From: Hygrocybe punicea
Taxonomy: Eukaryota; Basidiomycota; Agaricomycetes; Agaricales; Hygrophoraceae
Length of the DNA: 64,000 nt
Direction: 5' to 3'
Assembly: GCA_963556145.1 (NCBI GenBank)
Contig: OY744471.1
Location: 2,783,590-2,847,589 of the forward strand
Part shown: positions 9,692-42,252 of the stretch, one piece after another
How the letters are laid out: each line of letters starts with the position of its first letter
Position numbering within the stretch: the first letter of the stretch is position 1
Program-made: the position numbers and the translations under genes
Notes under the pieces: model-generated
What the model was told of the DNA's origin: nothing
Database searches by the model: none
Seen by the model: only the letters and a program-made list of their open reading frames with translations

Positions 9692-11611
9692 ATGGTAGAG
9701 ATTTCGACCCCGGAACAACAACGAGCTTTGACGCAGTTGCGCGTCTTGACCAGTTGCGATGACGATGTAGGTATCAGCGTTTTAGCAAGCGTTGACTGGA
9801 ACGTGGAGGTGAGTGGTCGTACACGGGCTTATAGTCATTCACGACAGCGCTCATTACCCACCGACAGAGGGCGGCCGATTTGGTTTTTGGTTCCAACCCA
9901 GTCTCAACAGCCAACACTGACCGTCGCATAGAAGCCTTCGATGTGAACCATAATCGTGACTCCTCTGGTTGGCTGACCGTACGTCGCTACCCGCTTGTTT
10001 GTTCCGCTCACCTTCTCACCACTCTTAGTTCCTTCCCTTATCTTGGCGTTCGCTATCCATCTCACATGCATTGTATTCTGCTGTCACTTTTCCTTTCCAC
10101 GTCCTCACCATGCTCGTCCGCTTTGTCTTCGGTATTCTCCGCCTTCCAATCCCCCCCTCGCGTTTCACCAATTTGAATCTTTATCGTCTCCGCCCTGGCT
10201 CGTCTAATTTACGAGGAGGTACCGACCGGTGGATTAGAGGATTAGAAGAAGACACTGGTGCTGTTTGCGTTAGTCGGATGCGAAACGGGCGGATGACCGT
10301 TTCCGGGACCAATGCTGGTCCCTCTACTCTCACCTCCAGGCCCATCAACGGAGATCTTAAATTTGACGGCACTAGAAAACTTCTTCCCGACTTCTCTTCC
10401 GCAAGTTATGAGGATACCTTGCGAAAATGCCAAACGGACGCGAAGATAGCTTGCGTCATCCTACTCTGCGAGGAGCATGACGACGTCACAGAGTTCAAGA
10501 GGTACTTTTGCATAGAACATTCTACTGTCCAAGTTCACTCACATCCTGTCAACTCTTCCCAGAAACACGCTCACAGATTCAGCGTTGGTTAGGATTCTTT
10601 ATGAAAACAATATTCTTGTTTGGGGGGGCGACGTCCGGGATCTGGAGGCCTGGAATGGTAAGTCCATTCACCTAAATTCAGAAACCTTACTGATCTACCT
10701 GCAACATTCAAGTCGCCCAAAAGCTACAAGCTACTACCTATCCTTTCGTGGCATTCATAGCCCTGCAACCTCGCCGGGATCCCATCACTGGTCCATCCCG
10801 GCCTATTACGCCAGTGCTGACCGTTCTTTCCAGGCACCAGGGTCGGTGTCTGCCAGGCACTGCCCCAACCTCTGCCCACACAATCGTTGAACATCTGCGA
10901 CGGCAACTACTTCCTCGTGTCACCCCGTTCCTAGAGCGGATACGATCCTCCCGAAGAGAACAAGACCAGGACCGGATTCTACGTGTGGAGCAGGATAGAG
11001 CGTTCCAAGACTCAGCTCGGAAGGATCGAGAAAGAATTGCAACTAAGATGGCCATGGAGAAGCAGGAAGCAGAGGAGAGAATGCGTAAACATGAGAAAAT
11101 TCAAATGGAAGAATTTAGGAGAAAAAGAGACTCAGAGGATTCGGTGAAGCAGGAAATCCTCAGGATGAACTGGAGCCGTTGGGCAAGAAGAACCCTTGTA
11201 CTCCCTGACTTGCATGGTACCAGGGAAGCTATTCGCGTGAATGTCCGACTTCCAGGAGACAAGCGAAAAATACGGCACTTCTCGCCGACTGCCACTCTCA
11301 CCACTCTCTACGCTTATGTCGATGCACAGCTCATACCCGAGAATCTTAGCCCGGAGGAGGACCCAATGAATCCACCGGAAGGGAATCTGATAGGGGAAGC
11401 GGCACTCGAGAGATATGTTACGAGTCTCCAAGACCGAGCTGACGGGTGGTGGGGGTTCAAGCTGGTACTTGCATACCCCCGACGGGAGATCAGATGGGAA
11501 GTGGGACGTCGTCTTTGTGATGTTGAGGACTTGAGAGCAGGTGGTCAAATCGTGGCTGAGATGGTCGAGGTCCCCGCTGCGGGCGACAATGGTAGCGAGG
11601 ATAGCGAATGA
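9692..11611 (+). CDS. ubx2: UBX-domain protein, FAF2/Ubx2 type
   Basis: Five exons join in frame: 9692-9808, 9868-9978, 10029-10501, 10563-10657 and 10713-11611, with introns of 50-61 nt, giving about 564 residues. An N-terminal UBA domain ends in WNVERAADLVF. A hydrophobic or amphipathic stretch follows (FHVLTMLVRFVFGILRLP) at the position of the FAF2 membrane hairpin. A UAS thioredoxin-like domain spans roughly residues 140-300 (KIACVILLCEEHDD, EFKRNTLTD, YPFVAFIAL). Then come a charged coiled coil (~345-410) and a C-terminal UBX domain (NVRLPGDKRKIRHFS). Family members recruit the Cdc48/p97 segregase to ER or lipid-droplet membranes for ERAD; that role is from the family. No stops or frameshifts: a real host gene. 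Symbol follows the yeast and fission-yeast naming. Confidence 0.9.
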
Positions 11612-25528: not shown

Positions 25529-26988
25529 ATGATGGACAAAGTCATGCACACATTGGGATCCTACCAGATTGAGTTATTTAAGGGGAACAATGCCGTGGAA
25601 GAGACAGATGTTAGCTGTGCTTCGGGATCTTGGGTTAGAGATGTACATCAATGTGGAATCAAAGGCCCCTGTTCCAGTGGATGCTTCCTGTCAAACACCA
25701 GCAGAATCCGATGCGATGCAGAAATGGTGTAACGGAGACACAAAGATGAGGATGCAGATCGAGCTTGCAATTGGCAATGTGGAAATGATACATATCATTG
25801 GCGTGCACATTGTACTGACCAAGGTGATGCAGAAATGGTGTGGCGGAGACACCAAGATGAGGACGCGGATTGAGCTCACAATTGGCAATGCGGAAATTAT
25901 ACATATCATTGGCATCCACATTGTACTAATCAATTGCTAAAGAAGGATTTGACATAATCGAGCACATATTGAAGCTCCGGAAACTGCAGGAGGAGCTCCA
26001 CTTGATGGGAAGCCTCATTTCTGATGAAGACTTCGTGATGATACTGGTATCCTCCTTACCAGAAAGTTGGAACTTGTATACATTGGTGCACTTAGGCTTG
26101 AAGAAGGATGGAATGTCACTGATGTCACATGAACTAGTCGCGATCCTATTAGAGGAAGACCGCAGGCACTGTGAGCGCAGTGGAGATCCTAACAACGTCG
26201 CTATGTACAGGAGGTTGACCAGAAAGTGTGATGGAAAGGGTAACAGAAAGCAGAAGGCAGCCAAATCCCAGACAGAATGTTTCAACTGCCACAAGAAAGG
26301 ACATATGGCAAAGGACTGATGGTCTAAAGGTGGCAGAAAAAAAGGGCAAGGGCCAAAAGGGAAAGGAAAGGGCGCCGGAAAGGGTGGAAACCACCAGAAC
26401 CAATCAAATCAAGCTGCGGACAATGTCAATAATATGTTACAGGACATAGCATATGCAGTGAATACAGACAATATTTCAAACTACGATTAGTTACTGGATT
26501 CCGGAACAACAAGTCACATCAGCAATTCCCATAATGCATTCATCACATACAAAACTCTGGATGAAGCTACCATTCAAGGACTAGGAAAGGTAATGGAATC
26601 ATTTTACACTTCACAGTGGACAGAAAGGACATACAGCATCAGCAACAAAATGTGCTACATGTACTGGAGTCATGGAACTCGCTACTATCACTGAGCCAAT
26701 TCGATGAAAGCGGTGGATGGGTTAACTTCCACAACGGAATATGCAGGCTCTATCTGAAGGAGAATAAACTTATCAGAACAGGCCAGAAAGATAGATGACT
26801 ATACCGTCTGAGTGCCCAAGGGCAATCCCACATGCCGGAAAAGGCAAATGTAGCCACGCCAAAGAAAATCTTGGGATGAATGGCACTGACTATATGGACA
26901 CATCGGAGTGAGTAGACTCAAGACCTAGCAGAGAAAGGGGTTAGTCACAGGTCTAGAAATCGATGAAGGAAGTATCCCTTCCTGTGAG
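25529..26988 (+). pseudogene. copia element 1: gag, zinc knuckle, protease, pre-integrase
   Basis: Gag starts at 25529, shifts frame near 25595, and carries a ~108-bp internal tandem duplication (about 25714-25930). Downstream are a Gag helical region (ISDEDFVMILVSSLPESW), a zinc knuckle CFNCHKKGHMAKD whose final Cys codon is now TGA, a basic Lys/Gly tail, the protease motif LLDSGTTSHIS preceded by TAG in place of a probable Trp codon, and the pre-integrase motif LYGHIGVSRLKTL. The element would encapsidate and copy its own RNA; this copy is inactive. It is broken at 26988 by an LTR insertion and continues at 29508. Confidence 0.85.
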
Positions 26989-27227
26989 TGTCACGACTAG
27001 CGGTCGTGTAATGGATCTGTGGGTCAAATAGTTGCACAATGTCAGCGGTAGCGAGGGTTTACGTTCAAGGGTCTTTTTATGGGAGTGATTGTATGTTTTG
27101 TGGAGGTAGGGTCTCAGGGATAAGGTTTGAGCGGTATGGAGGTTGTGAAGTTTGTTACGTCTAGTACAACTGCTAGGAGAAATACAAGAGGTCAAAGTTA
27201 AGGTAGGCTACGTGTAGCGTGATGTCT

Positions 27228-27605
27228 TTTATACCGTTCCCCCTCCTCTGCAGTACTAGTGATGCGTCGTAAGGATGACTCACTCTGTCGTGTTGGTGGG
27301 TCTACGTCTTCCCCGGCATCGAAGTGATTTGTGATCATGCCAGGCTGACACATGGATTCGTCATTAGATTCGTAAGCGTCTGGATACGCGTCATCATGGC
27401 TGTCTAGTTCTTCGTGAGGGTCTTTGCTGCCGTGTGATGTGTCGTTACTGCGGATTGTGGAGGGTCAGAACACCTTGAACATTGATAGGTGGGTTTCGGG
27501 ATCAGCGGTGATGGAGATTCGTTGTACTCCTTGGCATATCGTTATGAGGATAAATGCGTACACGACGATGATGGCAATGATAGCAGCAATAACTGACTGG
27601 GTCAT
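27228..27605 (-). pseudogene. Small single-pass membrane-protein frame in LTR A U3
   Basis: Starts ATG at 27603-27605 with a short N-terminus and one hydrophobic segment (IAAIIAIIVVYAFILITI). A basic stop-transfer-like residue cluster and a Ser/Asp/Glu/Pro-rich tail follow. One TGA at 27465-27467 interrupts it. It ends just before the LTR TATA box, in the sense orientation of the LTR. The LTR B copy aligns residue by residue. Function unknown. Confidence 0.5.
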
Positions 27606-27836
27606 GATTGGAGGGAGTGTGAGCGTGGATGATGAAAGTGGGGTGTCTTATTGTTCTGATGTGAATGATGAGAGTGGTCTGTGGTGTCCTGTGGGGGTCG
27701 GAGATTTCAACCTCCGCTCATGTGTTGCTCCCATGGGTTCGTTGATGAAGTGATAGAGGTTCCTTCCTGATTGGGAGTGGGTTTCTGTTTGGTATAAAGT
27801 GTGGTTGGATCCTTCGTCCCATCTCTCATCAATGCG

Positions 27837-29285
27837 ATGTTTCCCCACTTGTGCCATCGTCTCGTATTCTTCAAACGTTCTGTCCTCTTTAACCCGTCCC
27901 GCCCTGTCGCGGTTAATTGTATTATGCACAACTTCGCCTGCCGTCCCCCCGACTCTGATCAGGACTTGTATTGGGCTACTGGTCGTTGTTTCGCTTGCGG
28001 GAAGGCCAAACATCATATGGAGTGTTGCCACCTTGTTGCGCGCAACAAGAGGCTTCTGTGCAAGCTTCTGGCTGACCCGTTGATATGCAGTCTCTCCCTT
28101 TGGGCATGGAATCTCTCATATGGTCAATTCTACTTTCCCTACGACTCTTCCGCAGTCCCGCGTACATGCGAAACATCAGCGCGCCGCCCGCGACTTGCGC
28201 GACTTACGCCGATCGACGCACGCGTGACCGCGACATCTTCGCTGTATCTTAACCACACGACCCGGTCTTAAAACGCTGACACACGACTGTTAAACACGTC
28301 CTACACGTTCGGACACCGAGTCCGATACCAGAAATGTAATTCATCCGGTTTATCTTCGTCTTTTCGCCGACTTTCATGTGATATTCGCCGTTATTTCAAA
28401 TCCTTCGCTATTCCGTTCCCGTTTCGTCGCTTTCATGCGATATTTCGCTGCATTTCTATTTCACTCATCTACCCTTTCCCCCTATCCCTTTAGAATATAA
28501 AAAGTGCCCTGTAGTAGAAAATATGCGAAGAAGAACCCAGTTCTCCCCTCTCCACTAGTTTGCGGCTTAAGTTTTAAAAAGGATCTAGTCATTCTCACTC
28601 GAATCTGCATCTCTCCTCATCGCATACTCTCCACTATCGTGACCTAAGTCGTAGCGCAGAACCTCCGTCTCGTTGCGTCATCACCGCGTATCGCGCTGTC
28701 ATCTAGGACACCCAGCTAAGCCTTCCGATCCTTGTTTATCACTGCGTTGCGACATCGCGTTGTCTTGCGACTCTTCGCATTTGTTTATTTTATCGCGCAT
28801 ATTATCGCGCACTATCGCGTTATTGTTGGGAGTGTCCCCCAAGTCTCGTTTGCACCTTTGCGACGTTTTTCATCATTTATTATCTCTTTATCCAGGGTCA
28901 TAGACATGGAAACCATATCACCGTTCAGTAAGTTCTGTCTTTCTTGGGATGTTTGAGTATCGTTCTGATAGTTTTTATGATAGCGTTGGATGATGCATTC
29001 CCGCCCTCGGACTCCCTGTCTGAGGACTCAATGCCGTCGCTTGCGACGAAGGTTTCCTGGGGGTCCGACTCCGATGAGGACTTCTGGCCCAGGAATGCCT
29101 ATCTGGATACCGGGGCGCCCTTGGGGCTGTGTGAGTTTCAGCCTCGTCTTCCCTTCGGCATTGCTGACACGTTTAGGCGTAATTGCTGTGCAGCGATCGA
29201 ATGGGCATTGGAAGACCAGGTTCGTCAGCTCGTTGAAGAGGCCGTCCTCACAGAGGTGATTAAGGAGGAGTATCTCGATGAGTAG
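27837..29285 (+). pseudogene. Zinc-knuckle gene antisense in LTR A, split by an LTR
   Basis: Exon 1 is 27837-28080 plus 28925-28927 once the inserted LTR and one CCGT duplicate are discounted. The intron is 28928-28983 (GTAAGT...TAG). Exon 2 is 28984-29285. The product of about 182 residues has no stop: an N-terminal basic/aromatic part, DQDLYWATGRCFACGKAKHH..., a CX2CX4HX4C zinc knuckle, then KRLLCKLLADP, an acidic stretch and a C-terminal domain with LPFGIADTF and CAAIEWALEDQV. Exon 1 has exactly the same length (247 nt) as in LTR B. The zinc knuckle suggests nucleic-acid binding (inference). Confidence 0.65.
28081..28920 (+). repeat. Solo LTR C inside the zinc-knuckle gene
   Basis: An 840-bp LTR with matching ends TGATATG...CATATCA and a 4-bp duplication CCGT (28077-28080, 28921-28924). 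A TATA-like AATATAAAAAG lies near 28493. Its first ~345 bp recur inverted at 4423-4765. Confidence 0.85.
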
Positions 29286-29507
29286 ATGCTTCTTAGTTGT
29301 GATAGTTGTACTCCCTTTCTGGGAGTTGTAGTTGTAGTTCGGTCCAGTCTTGCCCCTTTAAGGGGCTTGTAAATGTAAAAGCCTTCCCCCGCTCCGCAGG
29401 GTGTGTGAGTCATAAGGGTTTGTCTGGCGATCTGTCGAAGATCGTCATGAAAATAAGTGGTATCTGAGGAAAAATGTATGGGGGTGATGTATTTTCATGA
29501 CAGTGAG

Positions 29508-30394
29508 GCTTGCATTGAGGCGAAGAAAGCTGTCCAGCCATTTTCTAAAGAGGCTGATGGATGATCAAAAGTTGCCAAAGAGTGGACTTTGAGCAACGTC
29601 TGGGGCCCAGCATGCATAGAGTCTATCAGAGGATCGAGATACTATATCTCATTCACAGATGATGCGGTACACACCATAACCACCTTATTCATGAAACGGA
29701 AAAGCCAGGTGACAGAACGCATCAAGGCTTACATTAACATGATCGAGAAGAAGTTCAATCGAAACCCTAAATATTTGCGGTTCGATAATGGAAAGGAACT
29801 TGTCAGCAAGGAAGTTGAGAGATGGGTAGTGCAGAAGGGAATTGTCATCAAAACAACAGCCCCTTACTCACCCTTGCAACATGGAATGGTGGAAAGATTT
29901 AATTGCACATTACTGGAGTTAGCTTGCACAATGTTGATTGCTAGAAACCTGCCCACATTCCTTTGGCCGGAAGCCGTTGCACAGGCAGCATACATTCAAA
30001 ACCAATCCCCCACCAAGGCTCTAGATGGAATGACTCTGCATGAAGCCTGGACTGGCAAGAAGCCAGAAGTATCACATTTCTGGGAGTTTGGATGCGATGT
30101 TGGAGTCTTATATCAAGGCAGAAAGAGATCGAAGCTGGCACCGCTATCAGCTAAGATGAAGTTCATAGGATTTGTGGAGTTGCAGAAGGCTATCCGATGC
30201 TATGATGCTGCAATATGGACTGTTAAAACATCATGGAATGTTGCATTTCACAAGGATGGGGCATTGCAGGAAGTCTGGATTGTATCCGACTAACCAAATT
30301 TGCAATTTGAGGGGGAGCCGAGTGAATCCGACGACTCGCAAACTCCAGAACCCACAATGGAATCACTGGAACCCACCAGAATGGCACTGGAAAG
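29508..30394 (+). pseudogene. copia element 1: integrase
   Basis: Continues the copia pol after LTR A. The DDE integrase core shows D in SFTDDAVHT, D in RFDNGKEL and E in GMVERFNCT, followed by the typical LPTFLWPEAVAQAAYIQNQSPT stretch (shown here only in part) and a GKKPEVSHFWEFGC region. A TGA in the ADG*SKV context (near 29560) and a TAA at 30291-30293 interrupt it. It is broken at 30394 by LTR B and resumes at 32035. Confidence 0.88.
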
Positions 30395-30580
30395 TGTCAT
30401 GAAAATAAGTCACCCCCATACATTTTTCCTCAGATACCACTTATTTTCATGACGATCTTCGACAGATCGCCAAACAAACCCTTACGACTCACACACCCTG
30501 CAGAGTGGGGGGGACATATACATTCACAAACCCCTGGAAGGGGCACCAGACCGGATACAAGTACAGATAATGCAACTACT

Positions 30581-31182
30581 CTATTCTACAGTAATCGCAT
30601 CTGAGACTGACGATCCTGACGCTTGCAGCTGGACATGCATGTCGTCCAGGAACCACTCAACCTCCCTCTCCAATGACCTCTCAATCGCTGCACGACAAAC
30701 CATCATAAACCTCGATGCTACCCCGAATGGCAGTGGGAAACCAGACTCACGATAAGTCAAGTCCCCGACCGGCTCCGGAGAAGGACCCCTCAGGTCCTCA
30801 GACGACAAGCCCCAGCTCACAGTAATCAGTGACAGTATCTCGGGGGACGACTCCTCCGACCTCCACGCATTATCCAATTCTAGAATAAGACTCAGTCAGA
30901 AGACCCCAGACAAATCCAGCAACCAAAGCACTCACGGTATGGGTCAGCCAGTAGCTGGCACAGAAGGACCTTGTGTACCTTAACCAGCGGGCAACACTCC
31001 GTGCGATGCCTCGCCTTCCCGCAAGCGAAACACTGACCCAAAGCCCAATAGAGATCCTGATCAGAAGCCGAGAGTTGAATGAGGTGGTGGAACATATAAC
31101 AATTAACCTTAACAACTGAGGTTGGGGGGAAGAGCGAAGAAGCCGTCAAGAAAGTGATATGGTGATAAGGGTGGAGACACAT
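30581..31182 (-). CDS. Zinc-knuckle protein gene, antisense in LTR B U3
   Basis: Two exons: 30936-31182 and 30581-30879, intron 30880-30935 (GTGAGT...TCTAG, 56 nt), 181 residues, no stop or frameshift. It has the motif DQDLYWALGQCFACGKARHR, completed as a CX2CX4HX4C knuckle, then LLCQLLADP, an acidic linker and a C-terminal domain (LPFGVASRF, CRAAIERSLEREVEWFLDD). It aligns along its whole length with the gene in LTR A, despite clear nucleotide divergence. Knuckles of this spacing bind single-stranded nucleic acid in retroelement Gag. Transcription would run antisense to the LTR. No promoter is recognised. Whether it is expressed is unknown. Confidence 0.65.
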
Positions 31183-31407
31183 CGCATTTCTGCAGGACAA
31201 GCATGCAGAAACCACCAAGCTTTATACACAACCAAGAAGACCCTACCACCAAGAACGACTCACCGACAACTGCCAGCAAGACCCGCACATGACCAGACGT
31301 TCAAACTCCACTTTCCATCAGACAACACCACTCTTCCCATCATTCACACAAAGACAATAGACGCCCCACTCTCACCATCACCACCCACGCCTGTCAAAGA
31401 CTGAATC

Positions 31408-31731
31408 ATGACACCGTCAATCACCGCCACTGTTATCGCTATCATTATTGTGTACGCGTTCCTCCTTGCAACAATAATCTGAGGAGTACGATGAATCCAT
31501 GGGGCGATCGACCCCGAGATCCCCCTATCGACGTTCGAGGCATTCCGGCCTCCCACGATCCACAGCAACGACATGTCACATGGCAGCGACAACAACAACG
31601 AGTCAGGCCGCCAAAGTGACACGTCCCCTTGTGAACCCACCCATGACACATCAGGCCAGGGCCACACAACTGTGGAACATGCCGACATGGCAGTTCCAGC
31701 GATGACGAACATAGGGCCGCAGCAAGGCTGA
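31408..31731 (+). pseudogene. Membrane-protein frame in LTR B U3
   Basis: The start MTPSITATVIAIIIVYAFLL gives one transmembrane segment. The tail is rich in Ser, Asp, His and Asn, ending at a TGA (31729-31731) 76 bp before the TATA box. Two in-frame TGAs (31480-31482 and 31492-31494) sit where copy A has CAA and CGA, consistent with CGA ancestors decayed on either strand. Function unknown. Confidence 0.5.
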
Positions 31732-32034
31732 CATGTCTACTCACAGGGCGACTAAGAGTGAGTCGATGCTCATATGACTCATAGAGGCTGCGGGAGGGGA
31801 CGAAGGGTATAAAAGACGTCGAGCAGGAAGCACATAGATCCCTAACTTGACCTCTTGTATTCCTCCTAGCAGTTGTACTAGATGTAACAAACTTCACAAA
31901 CTTCCTTACCGCTCAAACCTTATCCCTGAGACCCTACCTTACGACTAAAGACCCTTGAACGTAAACCCTCACTACCGCCAACATTGTGCAACCATTTGAC
32001 CCACGGATCCATCACACGACCGCTAGTCGTGACA

Positions 32035-36030: not shown

Positions 36031-36745
36031 TTGCCGTTTTCAGAAAGGTTGTCACATCACGCGTAACACGCGACTTTTGTCACTTTGGCACACGAAACAT
36101 CGGTGAGCCGTTTCTCATCCAATTCTCAACATTTCCATCTAATTCTTTCTGTTCTGTCATCCCCTCATCCCTCTCCAGGTGCACAACCAACTTTCAGGCC
36201 CCATTTCTCAAGTATGGGCACGATCAAAATTTGGGCCTTGTCACCCTCTCGGAGAACATTTCTGGTGCATCGCGGGGAGATACCAAGCTGGAATTGGGCC
36301 GAAATAACCCAGGTATGTCCTCCCCAGATGCCCATGAAGTTTTTGTGCTGAATCACTTGAATTTTCACCATAGGAAAACCCAGATGTCACCCAACGCCGC
36401 CCTGACGCTGTGAGCGTATCTGCATTACCTAGTGGAGAGATGTTGTCCAGGAACTATATGGAACCTTTCATGGTATGTCTACCCCAGGTGCATGCGTCGC
36501 CACAAGCTGACCACACTCAGTACTCGGCTTTACAGGCGGCTTGGAACCTCTGTACTATACTATCTACCTCCAGCCATTTTTCTCGACATCTATCTGTTCT
36601 GTTTGTGCACGGCTGGTCTATCCTTTGTATATGAGACATGTACTATACTTATATAAATATATTTGTTGCTTGAGAGTCAAATCAAATCGTGTGTTGCTGT
36701 GGAAACGGCCGAAGTCATCATCAATCATCCTTCATCACGACTTGC

Positions 36746-41492: not shown

Positions 41493-42252
41493 AGTGATTC
41501 GGAGTCGTTTCAGAAGATCAACGTTGGCTTTGGATACCTAATATGGCAGTGTCAAGTTCAATGGCGAAGAGATCATTATTCAGGTAAAAACTACATCATA
41601 CAGGTCTCATATACAAATAATAGACTAGCCGTGCACAAACCGAACAGATAGATGTCGAGAAAAATGGCTGGAGGTGGATAGTGTAGTACAGAGGTTCCAA
41701 GCCGCCTGTAAAGCCGAGTACTGAGTGTGGTCAGCTTGTGGCGACGCATGCACCTGGGGTAGACATACCATGAAAGGTTCCATATAGTTCCTGGACAACA
41801 TCTCTCCACTAGGTAATGCAGATACGCTCACAGCGTCAGGGCGGCGTTGGGTGACATCTGGGTTTTCCTATGGTGAAAATTCAAGTGATTCAGCACAAAA
41901 ACTTCATGGGCATCTGGGGAGGACATACCTGGGTTATTTCGGCCCAATTCCAGCTTGGTATCTCCCCGCGATGCACCAGAAATGTTCTCCGAGAGGGTGA
42001 CAAGGCCCAAATTTTGATCGTACCCATACTTGAGAAATGGGGCCTGAAAGTTGGTTGTGCACCTGGAGAGGGATGAGGGGATGACAGAACAGAAAGAATT
42101 AGACGGAAATGTTGAGAATTGGATGAGAAACGGCTCACCGATGTTTCGTGTGCCAGAGTGACAAAAGTCGCGTGTTACGCGTGATGTGACAACCTTTCTG
42201 AAAACGGCAATAACTTCTGCTCTATTTACAATTTGCTTTTTGCAAAATTAAC

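Follow-up and report, generated by a model that had tools for sequence, protein, structure and literature searches.

Can a long terminal repeat (LTR) of a fungal retrotransposon carry a gene of its own, and if so, what might such a gene do for the element? The question is raised by two LTRs in a 64,000 nt stretch of contig OY744471.1 of Hygrocybe punicea (the window). They lie in opposite orientation, copy A at 26989-29502 on the minus strand and copy B at 30395-32034 on the plus strand, the strand in each case being that of the element sense. A first-pass annotation had proposed that each contains, antisense to the LTR, a two-exon gene for a zinc-knuckle protein that has been kept by selection. 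Comparison of the two copies with their relatives in the 92 Mb genome (42 contigs) leaves us in very little doubt about the anatomy of this gene, which we call the knuckle gene, and about selection on it at the protein level. The role of its product within the element, a chromodomain Ty3 retrotransposon, can be argued more tentatively.

Both copies have TG..CA ends and are flanked by 5-bp target duplications, GTGAG for copy A and GAAAG for copy B, and they represent two diverged LTR types, A and B respectively. A DNA search of the genome with copy B gave at least 44 matching rows (40 of 111 candidates scored). With copy A, seven uninterrupted A-type relatives were found outside the window (40 of 366 candidates scored), and most of the other rows, many of them matching at 95-97%, correspond to a younger LTR of another family that is inserted in this copy at 28081-28920. 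An exact 5-nt duplication was counted by eye in 27 of the 31 solo-type LTR rows, both window copies included.

The opposed pair of LTRs that the first-pass annotation had described is further confirmed by full-length elements in the same genome. Since internal regions flanked by such LTRs exist, copies A and B are solo LTRs, and the alternative that they are complete non-LTR elements is ruled out. Full-length, LTR-paired copies with B-type LTRs were read at L009, L010 and L011 and on contig C2 (seen in L012/L013, with LTRs ~13 kb apart), and L079 is a full-length, LTR-paired element with an A-type U3, the part of the LTR unique to the 3' end of the RNA. The search for such elements, suggested earlier as a check, thus had a positive outcome, and as the LTR pairs differ by only 2 nt (L009), 1 nt (L010) and 0 nt (L011 and L079), these insertions are recent. 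Target duplications of 5 bp are present at L009, L010 and L079. The pol region of L010 matches protease, reverse transcriptase (RT), RNase H, integrase zinc-binding domain and chromodomain (in Pfam, H2C2, RT, RNase H and Chromo above the cut-off and the rve core below it), and its gag matches Retrotrans_gag and zf-CCHC. With its paired LTRs, target duplications and gag and pol regions, the family is a chromodomain Ty3 element, or Ty3 chromovirus. A 259-residue query from the protease region had fungal names (Metarhizium, Termitomyces) among its matches, and no IMG/VR contig matched the pol patterns. Copies bearing pol were found at eight places with 89-100% identity to a 1.6-kb pol probe. In the full-length elements gag-pol is read on the sense strand of the LTR, and the knuckle gene is therefore antisense.

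In copy B the whole gene spans 31182-30581 on the minus strand. Exon 1 (31182-30936, 247 nt) holds a CX2CX4HX4C motif and is followed by a 56 nt intron (30935-30880; GTGAGT..TTCTAG, with a CTGAC branch-like site) and by exon 2 with the stop codon (30879-30581, 299 nt). In copy A, where the gene is on the plus strand, the younger LTR interrupts exon 1 three nucleotides before its end, so that the first 244 nt are at 27837-28080 and the last 3 nt at 28925-28927, past the insert; comparison with other copies places the intron (56 nt, GTAAGT..GATAG) at 28928-28983 and exon 2 with its stop at 28984-29285. The common exon 1 length of 247 nt reported for the two copies therefore holds, directly in B and as 244 + 3 nt around the insert in A. 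Six of the seven uninterrupted relatives of A type have an exon 1 of 247 nt, and the seventh, L059, has one of 261 nt. The inserted LTR belongs to an abundant family and has a 4-nt duplication, CCGT, where copies A and B have 5 nt.

Intactness was counted in 39 termini-complete LTRs, obtained from 41 rows by leaving out window copy A, with its insert, and one spurious nested match; eight more fetched places, in which no LTR end was recognised, were dropped. Of these 39 LTRs, 35 have an exon 1 of exactly 247 nt, and 31 have the whole gene intact with its GT-AG intron. The remaining eight are broken by a frameshift (L002, L006 and L059), an internal stop (L014), a changed donor site (L023 and L026) or an insert (L063 and L069). 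In the five LTR-paired elements (L009, L010, L011, L012/L013 and L079), all LTRs that were read have the gene intact. Over 37 copies the intron measures 56 nt in 27, 55 nt in five and 57 nt in five, with GT kept in 35 and AG in all 37; exon 2 of the intact B copies is 290, 296 or 299 nt long. The GT-AG pattern, together with the orientation of gag-pol, supports the two-exon antisense gene proposed for U3, which may be transcribed and spliced. For exon 2, 36 of 37 copies have an open coding frame, scored to its own stop, whereas the other five frames, scored across the entire slice, are open in 0-3 of 37. Exon 1 discriminates less well: the coding frame is open in 34 of 37 copies and the +1 frame in 33. 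The latter has an upstream ATG at 31185-31187 (minus strand), 5 nt before the knuckle ATG and kept in 35 of 35 copies. We do not count this open frame as a gene, because its ratio of non-synonymous to synonymous differences (pN/pS) in exon 1, 0.72 among B copies and 0.82 between A and B, exceeds that of the coding frame (0.20 and 0.65). Genome-wide, internal stops were found in 4 of 87 exon 1 rows and 3 of 82 exon 2 rows, where a fragmented copy yields more than one row.

A single host gene lying beside a repeat was also considered and is rejected, since the matches recur throughout the genome and the fetched copies are LTRs. A third and more diverged copy of the gene, L077 (C2:613400-615250), has an exon 1 of 253 nt and an intron of 54 nt, and its protein is nearer to the A-type (108/175 residues identical with L079) than to the B-type (77/169 with L010).

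Is this frame maintained as a protein? The pN/pS ratio was taken over readable copies, frame-broken ones being excluded, with limits from a codon bootstrap of 2000 resamples. It is 0.19 among B copies (0.14-0.26; 27 rows, 24 distinct), 0.37 among A copies (0.27-0.51; 12 rows), 0.64 between A and B (0.52-0.77) and 0.45 between L077 and A (0.35-0.60), and in all four comparisons every one of the 2000 resamples stayed below 1. With 28 B rows, the ratio was 0.21 in the coding frame and 0.31, 0.82, 0.88, 1.52 and 1.56 in the other five, the value of 0.31 belonging to the reverse frame that shares third positions with the coding frame. Between types the ratio is 0.46 over codons 41-70, which include the knuckle. 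The 23 least diverged B pairs still have a low ratio, 0.32; as a yardstick, pol gave 0.12-0.16 in three of the elements. Length changes point the same way: relative to the window copy, the exons of 28 B copies show 11 indel events of a length divisible by three and 1 other, and the 56 nt intron shows 50 events, 0 of them divisible by three, in pairwise counts that register an inherited event repeatedly and that leave out L006, L063, L067 and L069. Frame-breaking indels fall in the intron and flanks and scarcely in the exons. Ratios well below 1 and stops in so few of the 87 exon 1 rows bear out the selective maintenance claimed in the first-pass annotation. Neither of the outcomes that it had named as contrary to its view, a lack of internal regions flanked by these LTRs or a dN/dS (non-synonymous to synonymous substitution rate ratio) near 1 with stops, occurred.

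The position of the gene within the LTR depends on where the genomic RNA begins. In L009, L010, L011 and L079, TTAGGTCAAAGTT lies directly 3' of the 5' LTR. The 11-mer AACTTTGACCT is complementary to it from the third base of TTAGGTCAAAGTT, and in all four elements 2 nt separate the end of the 5' LTR from the complement of AACTTTGACCT. The exact 11-mer is present in 35 of 37 LTRs, with a TATA 34-36 nt upstream in all 34 copies where both could be measured. An 11-nt stretch at the presumed transcript start that is complementary to the primer-binding site resembles the arrangement in Tf1 of fission yeast, which uses self-priming. By analogy, AACTTTGACCT may mark the 5' end of the RNA, and the element looks to be probably self-primed in the manner of Tf1. 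It differs from Tf1 in that its LTRs are 1.6 kb long and carry genes; we know of no genes in Tf1 LTRs. A transcript start at AACTTTGACCT would give a U3 of ~1.44 kb that contains both the knuckle gene and a second open reading frame (ORF) on the sense strand. In copy B, whose version of the 11-mer has one T missing, this would place U3 at ~30395-31843 and the repeat and unique 5' parts (R-U5) at ~31844-32034, with the candidate TATA box of the genomic-RNA promoter at 31808-31814 (plus strand). The antisense gene appears to have a TATA box of its own, TATAAA at 31221-31226 (minus strand), 44 nt before the knuckle ATG in copy B, and 37 of 37 LTRs have an exact TATAAA 44-45 nt upstream of that ATG.

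At L079:107-164 there is a perfect 12-nt inverted repeat (GTCATGAAAATA / TATTTTCATGAC) with arms 34 nt apart, and the first 60 nt of the LTR, which hold it, are nearly identical in the A and B types.

Analysis of the two LTR types, and of the sense-strand ORF, goes beyond what the first-pass annotation had claimed, as does the probable self-priming. The 5.2 kb internal regions of L079 (A) and L010 (B) are 97.2% identical and their LTRs 62.7% identical. Their knuckle proteins share 87 of 172 residues, and those of window copy B and A-type L030 share 77 of 172, the overall range between types being 45-51%. The synonymous difference in pol is 0.049 between L079 and L010 and 0.14 between L009 and L010, both of which are B-type, and a midpoint-rooted pol tree groups L079 with B elements (support 100/100). 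An approximately unbiased (AU) test did not reject the grouping of A-type pol sequences together (p 0.137), and the case for a swap of U3 therefore rests on the contrast in identity, not on topology. An older element on contig C35, whose LTR is taken to be A-type because of its spacing to L054 and L050, is present as two copies in opposite orientation with a pol that is only 89% identical. The LTR of L079 is itself a hybrid: its first ~1470 positions are A-type, and the remainder matches B at 95-100% identity. Over that remainder the other A-type LTRs compared share 78-90% identity with L079 in two blocks, and a third block has gaps or lower identity. L067 is a hybrid of another kind, in which a B-type knuckle half (to ~840) is joined to an A-type sense-ORF half, and its break lies between the two start codons, the knuckle ATG at ~779 (by L010) and the sense ATG at 1019 (in L067). 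Template switching in the course of reverse transcription, or gene conversion, could account for such hybrid LTRs. The gene and the non-coding U3 diverge together as a cassette, whereas gag-pol does not.

The second ORF of U3 is divergent from the knuckle gene and has 135 (A) or 142-143 (B) codons, its product having a hydrophobic N-terminus that starts MTPSIAAAVIAIVIVYAFLL in L011 and MTQSVIAAIIAIIIVYTFIL in L072. In L010 it ends ~7 nt before the self-priming 11-mer and so lies wholly in U3. Of 47 copies examined, 24 have it open over at least 130 codons, among them every B-type LTR that was read from an LTR-paired element. In L079 the frame ends after 66 codons, and in both window copies it is cut short early, leaving remnants of 24 codons (copy B, 31408-31482, plus strand) and 46 codons (copy A, 27465-27605, minus strand). 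Over open copies pN/pS is 0.64 (0.52-0.77) between A and B, 0.34 (0.25-0.45) among A and 0.55 (0.42-0.75) among B, and over codons 1-60 it is lower still (0.45, 0.21 and 0.41, respectively). Counting against a gene are the bias that the choice of open copies brings to these ratios, the equally low values of the +2 frame (0.58) and of one reverse frame (0.57) in the B set, and indels in the region that are more often not divisible by three (29) than divisible (8). A general protein search gave no relative of its product at E <= 0.01. We regard the sense ORF as a probable gene with a weaker case than the knuckle gene, the signs of constraint being partly contradictory.

The knuckle protein has ~180 residues, and CX2CX4HX4C is present in 37 of 40 readable copies, the exceptions being L050 and L054, with N in place of H, and L077, with two extra residues. 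The four window exons gave no Pfam match to zf-CCHC (PF00098) at E up to 10. Derivation from Gag was considered and rejected, as the resemblance consists mainly of 7 identities among 17 residues at the motif, and no similarity was detectable beyond it. In a structure model of exon 2, built from the window letters only (two rows), nearly all of residues 1-47 have a predicted local distance difference test score (pLDDT) below 50, and a single helix is predicted at residues 53-95, with block means of 75-94 over most of its length. The architecture is probably that of a knuckle, an acidic and probably disordered linker and a long C-terminal helix, which might dimerise. The protein may bind nucleic acid; the Gag-like or antisense control factor suggested in the first-pass annotation is likewise conjecture.

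What, then, could this protein do? We lean, with confidence a little short of even, towards a recently active and probably self-primed chromodomain Ty3 element with accessory genes in U3, in which the knuckle factor aids the element. The spliced antisense gene would be expressed from its own TATA-type promoter, and its protein would act in trans on the RNA or LTR of the element, helping expression or replication through the handling of genomic RNA or through escape from silencing. The factor could be matched to its own U3 type; the gene and any cis-targets would travel together with each LTR, whole U3 cassettes could be swapped between elements, and a solo LTR would still carry the gene. A helper is favoured because the knuckle gene is intact in every LTR-paired element read and the sense ORF is not. 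As to the direction of action, help seems preferable, with restraint and anti-silencing as close rivals. Several observations weigh against a helper. Type-specific pairing is suggested by co-inheritance as its sole hint, and L067 pairs a B-type knuckle gene with an A-type sense ORF. No relative in Pfam, PHROG, PDB sequences or the databases backs a biochemical role, the exon 2 model is weak (mean pLDDT 62.7, predicted template modelling score 0.34), and the LTRs of L079 and L010 show only short dispersed repeats, possibly due to chance. The selection estimates leave out frame-broken copies. Among six A rows, the value for the reverse frame sharing third positions is 0.45 and that for the coding frame 0.43, so that the ratio among A copies is not by itself frame-specific, and between-type constraint is uneven, with 0.98 over codons 21-50 and 1.17 over codons 161-190. 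The upstream +1 ATG should also interfere with translation from the knuckle ATG, unless ribosomes scan past it on a very short leader; a TATAAA at 44-45 nt from the ATG would mean such a leader and may let scanning skip the first ATG.

Much of the same evidence could be read the other way, with the knuckle protein restraining its own family through copy-number or superinfection control, its dose rising with each solo LTR and the U3 types acting as immunity groups. Ty1 p22 offers a precedent for self-restraint, and the survival of the gene in solo LTRs (87 exon 1 rows against eight pol places at 89-100% identity) and the sharing of one gag-pol by diverged LTR types would both suit it. We consider it unlikely, if a serious contender, as selection for restraint should be harder to obtain on a selfish element than selection for help, and the recent insertions happened in a genome with many intact copies. 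An anti-silencing factor that recognises motifs in its own U3 and co-evolves with them is a somewhat doubtful alternative. The divergence of gene and non-coding U3 as a cassette, without gag-pol, speaks for it, but a CCHC knuckle points to RNA as readily as to DNA, and the repeats listed for the LTRs of L079 and L010 include no tandem array. VANC of the Arabidopsis VANDAL elements provides the precedent, and its targets are often, though not always, tandem repeats (PMC5735166). It is also conceivable, though speculative and again doubtful, that U3 is an exchangeable cassette of two genes, one antisense and spliced for a nucleic-acid-binding factor and the other divergent for a membrane protein, each with its own promoter, and that its allele-like types set which elements cooperate or exclude one another in the manner of phage immunity regions.

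Two further explanations carry less weight. Introns are unusual in retroelement genes, and the ratio of 0.32 in the 23 least diverged B pairs is likewise what might be seen if a host gene had been captured by the LTR, or if LTR genes were kept for the benefit of the host. This we think improbable: the fetched copies are all LTR copies, no free-standing one was noticed in the part of the 87 exon 1 rows inspected, and the protein search found no host-like relative. Least probable by far is that the antisense transcript does the work, by antisense or double-stranded RNA control, and that the frame is incidental. Antisense transcripts of LTR elements can regulate without coding (PMC7264820), but pN/pS, frame-keeping indels and conserved splice sites are signals at the protein level and largely contradict it.

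The surroundings of the two copies can be described briefly. Both are embedded in a Copia-type relic, and an ORF between them (29589-30290) matches an integrase core and SH3_retrovirus. Rfam and tRNA scans of the window found nothing. An ORF at 10748-11608 (plus strand) with a UBX domain match is probably a host gene. Inverted repeats at 36241-36642 and 41599-42000 are 402 nt long, 98% complementary and 4956 nt apart, and may be longer, as one arm reaches the edge of the searched region. A tandem pair of 111-nt units, 86% identical, lies at 25708-25929.

Genes inside LTRs are rare. The sag gene of mouse mammary tumour virus is a sense protein-coding gene in U3, and the sense ORF described here occupies the same place, although here it is an antisense, spliced gene that has the best support, and no relative of the sense ORF was recognised. 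In human T-cell leukaemia virus type 1 (HTLV-1) most of the HBZ coding sequence is outside the LTR, whereas the knuckle gene lies wholly in U3, twice per element, and is present in solo LTRs. HBZ is a basic leucine zipper (bZIP) factor; the knuckle protein has no Pfam match, to bZIP or otherwise. What HBZ and the APH proteins share with it is a spliced antisense gene driven from retroelement LTR sequences (PMC10186651). An antisense gene, HAP, has been proposed inside U3-R of the LTR of human immunodeficiency virus 1 (HIV-1), an unrelated virus in which antisense transcripts start in TAR DNA (PMC1654176); the knuckle gene differs in its intron and in the comparative evidence of selection. Antisense accessory ORFs whose function is not known also occur in the LTR retrotransposons Grande (gene23), RIRE2 and Retand, but are placed between pol and the 3' LTR and not within the LTR (PMC7264820). 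The chromodomain LTR element crapaud of Podospora anserina has diverged variants of the 5' half of its LTR, and the available part of its description depicts two ORFs, gag and pol, and mentions no LTR-encoded gene (PMC10787394). PMC1560396 and PMC12037069, considered as precedents for LTR genes, concern other subjects in the parts available. Among the matches listed in a literature search whose coverage excludes most subscription journals, no LTR from a fungus was seen to carry a gene of its own, and no antisense gene with an intron was seen to lie entirely within an LTR.

As a retroelement accessory gene, the knuckle gene appears to be new in its location and in its build. Any full-length element carries two copies of a gene that lies in U3, and one copy remains in each solo LTR; when elements are lost in the usual way, by recombination between their LTRs, a functional gene would thus stay in the genome. 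With U3 swapped between elements, it can readily be tested whether the diverged U3 types found on a single gag-pol lineage interact with each other.

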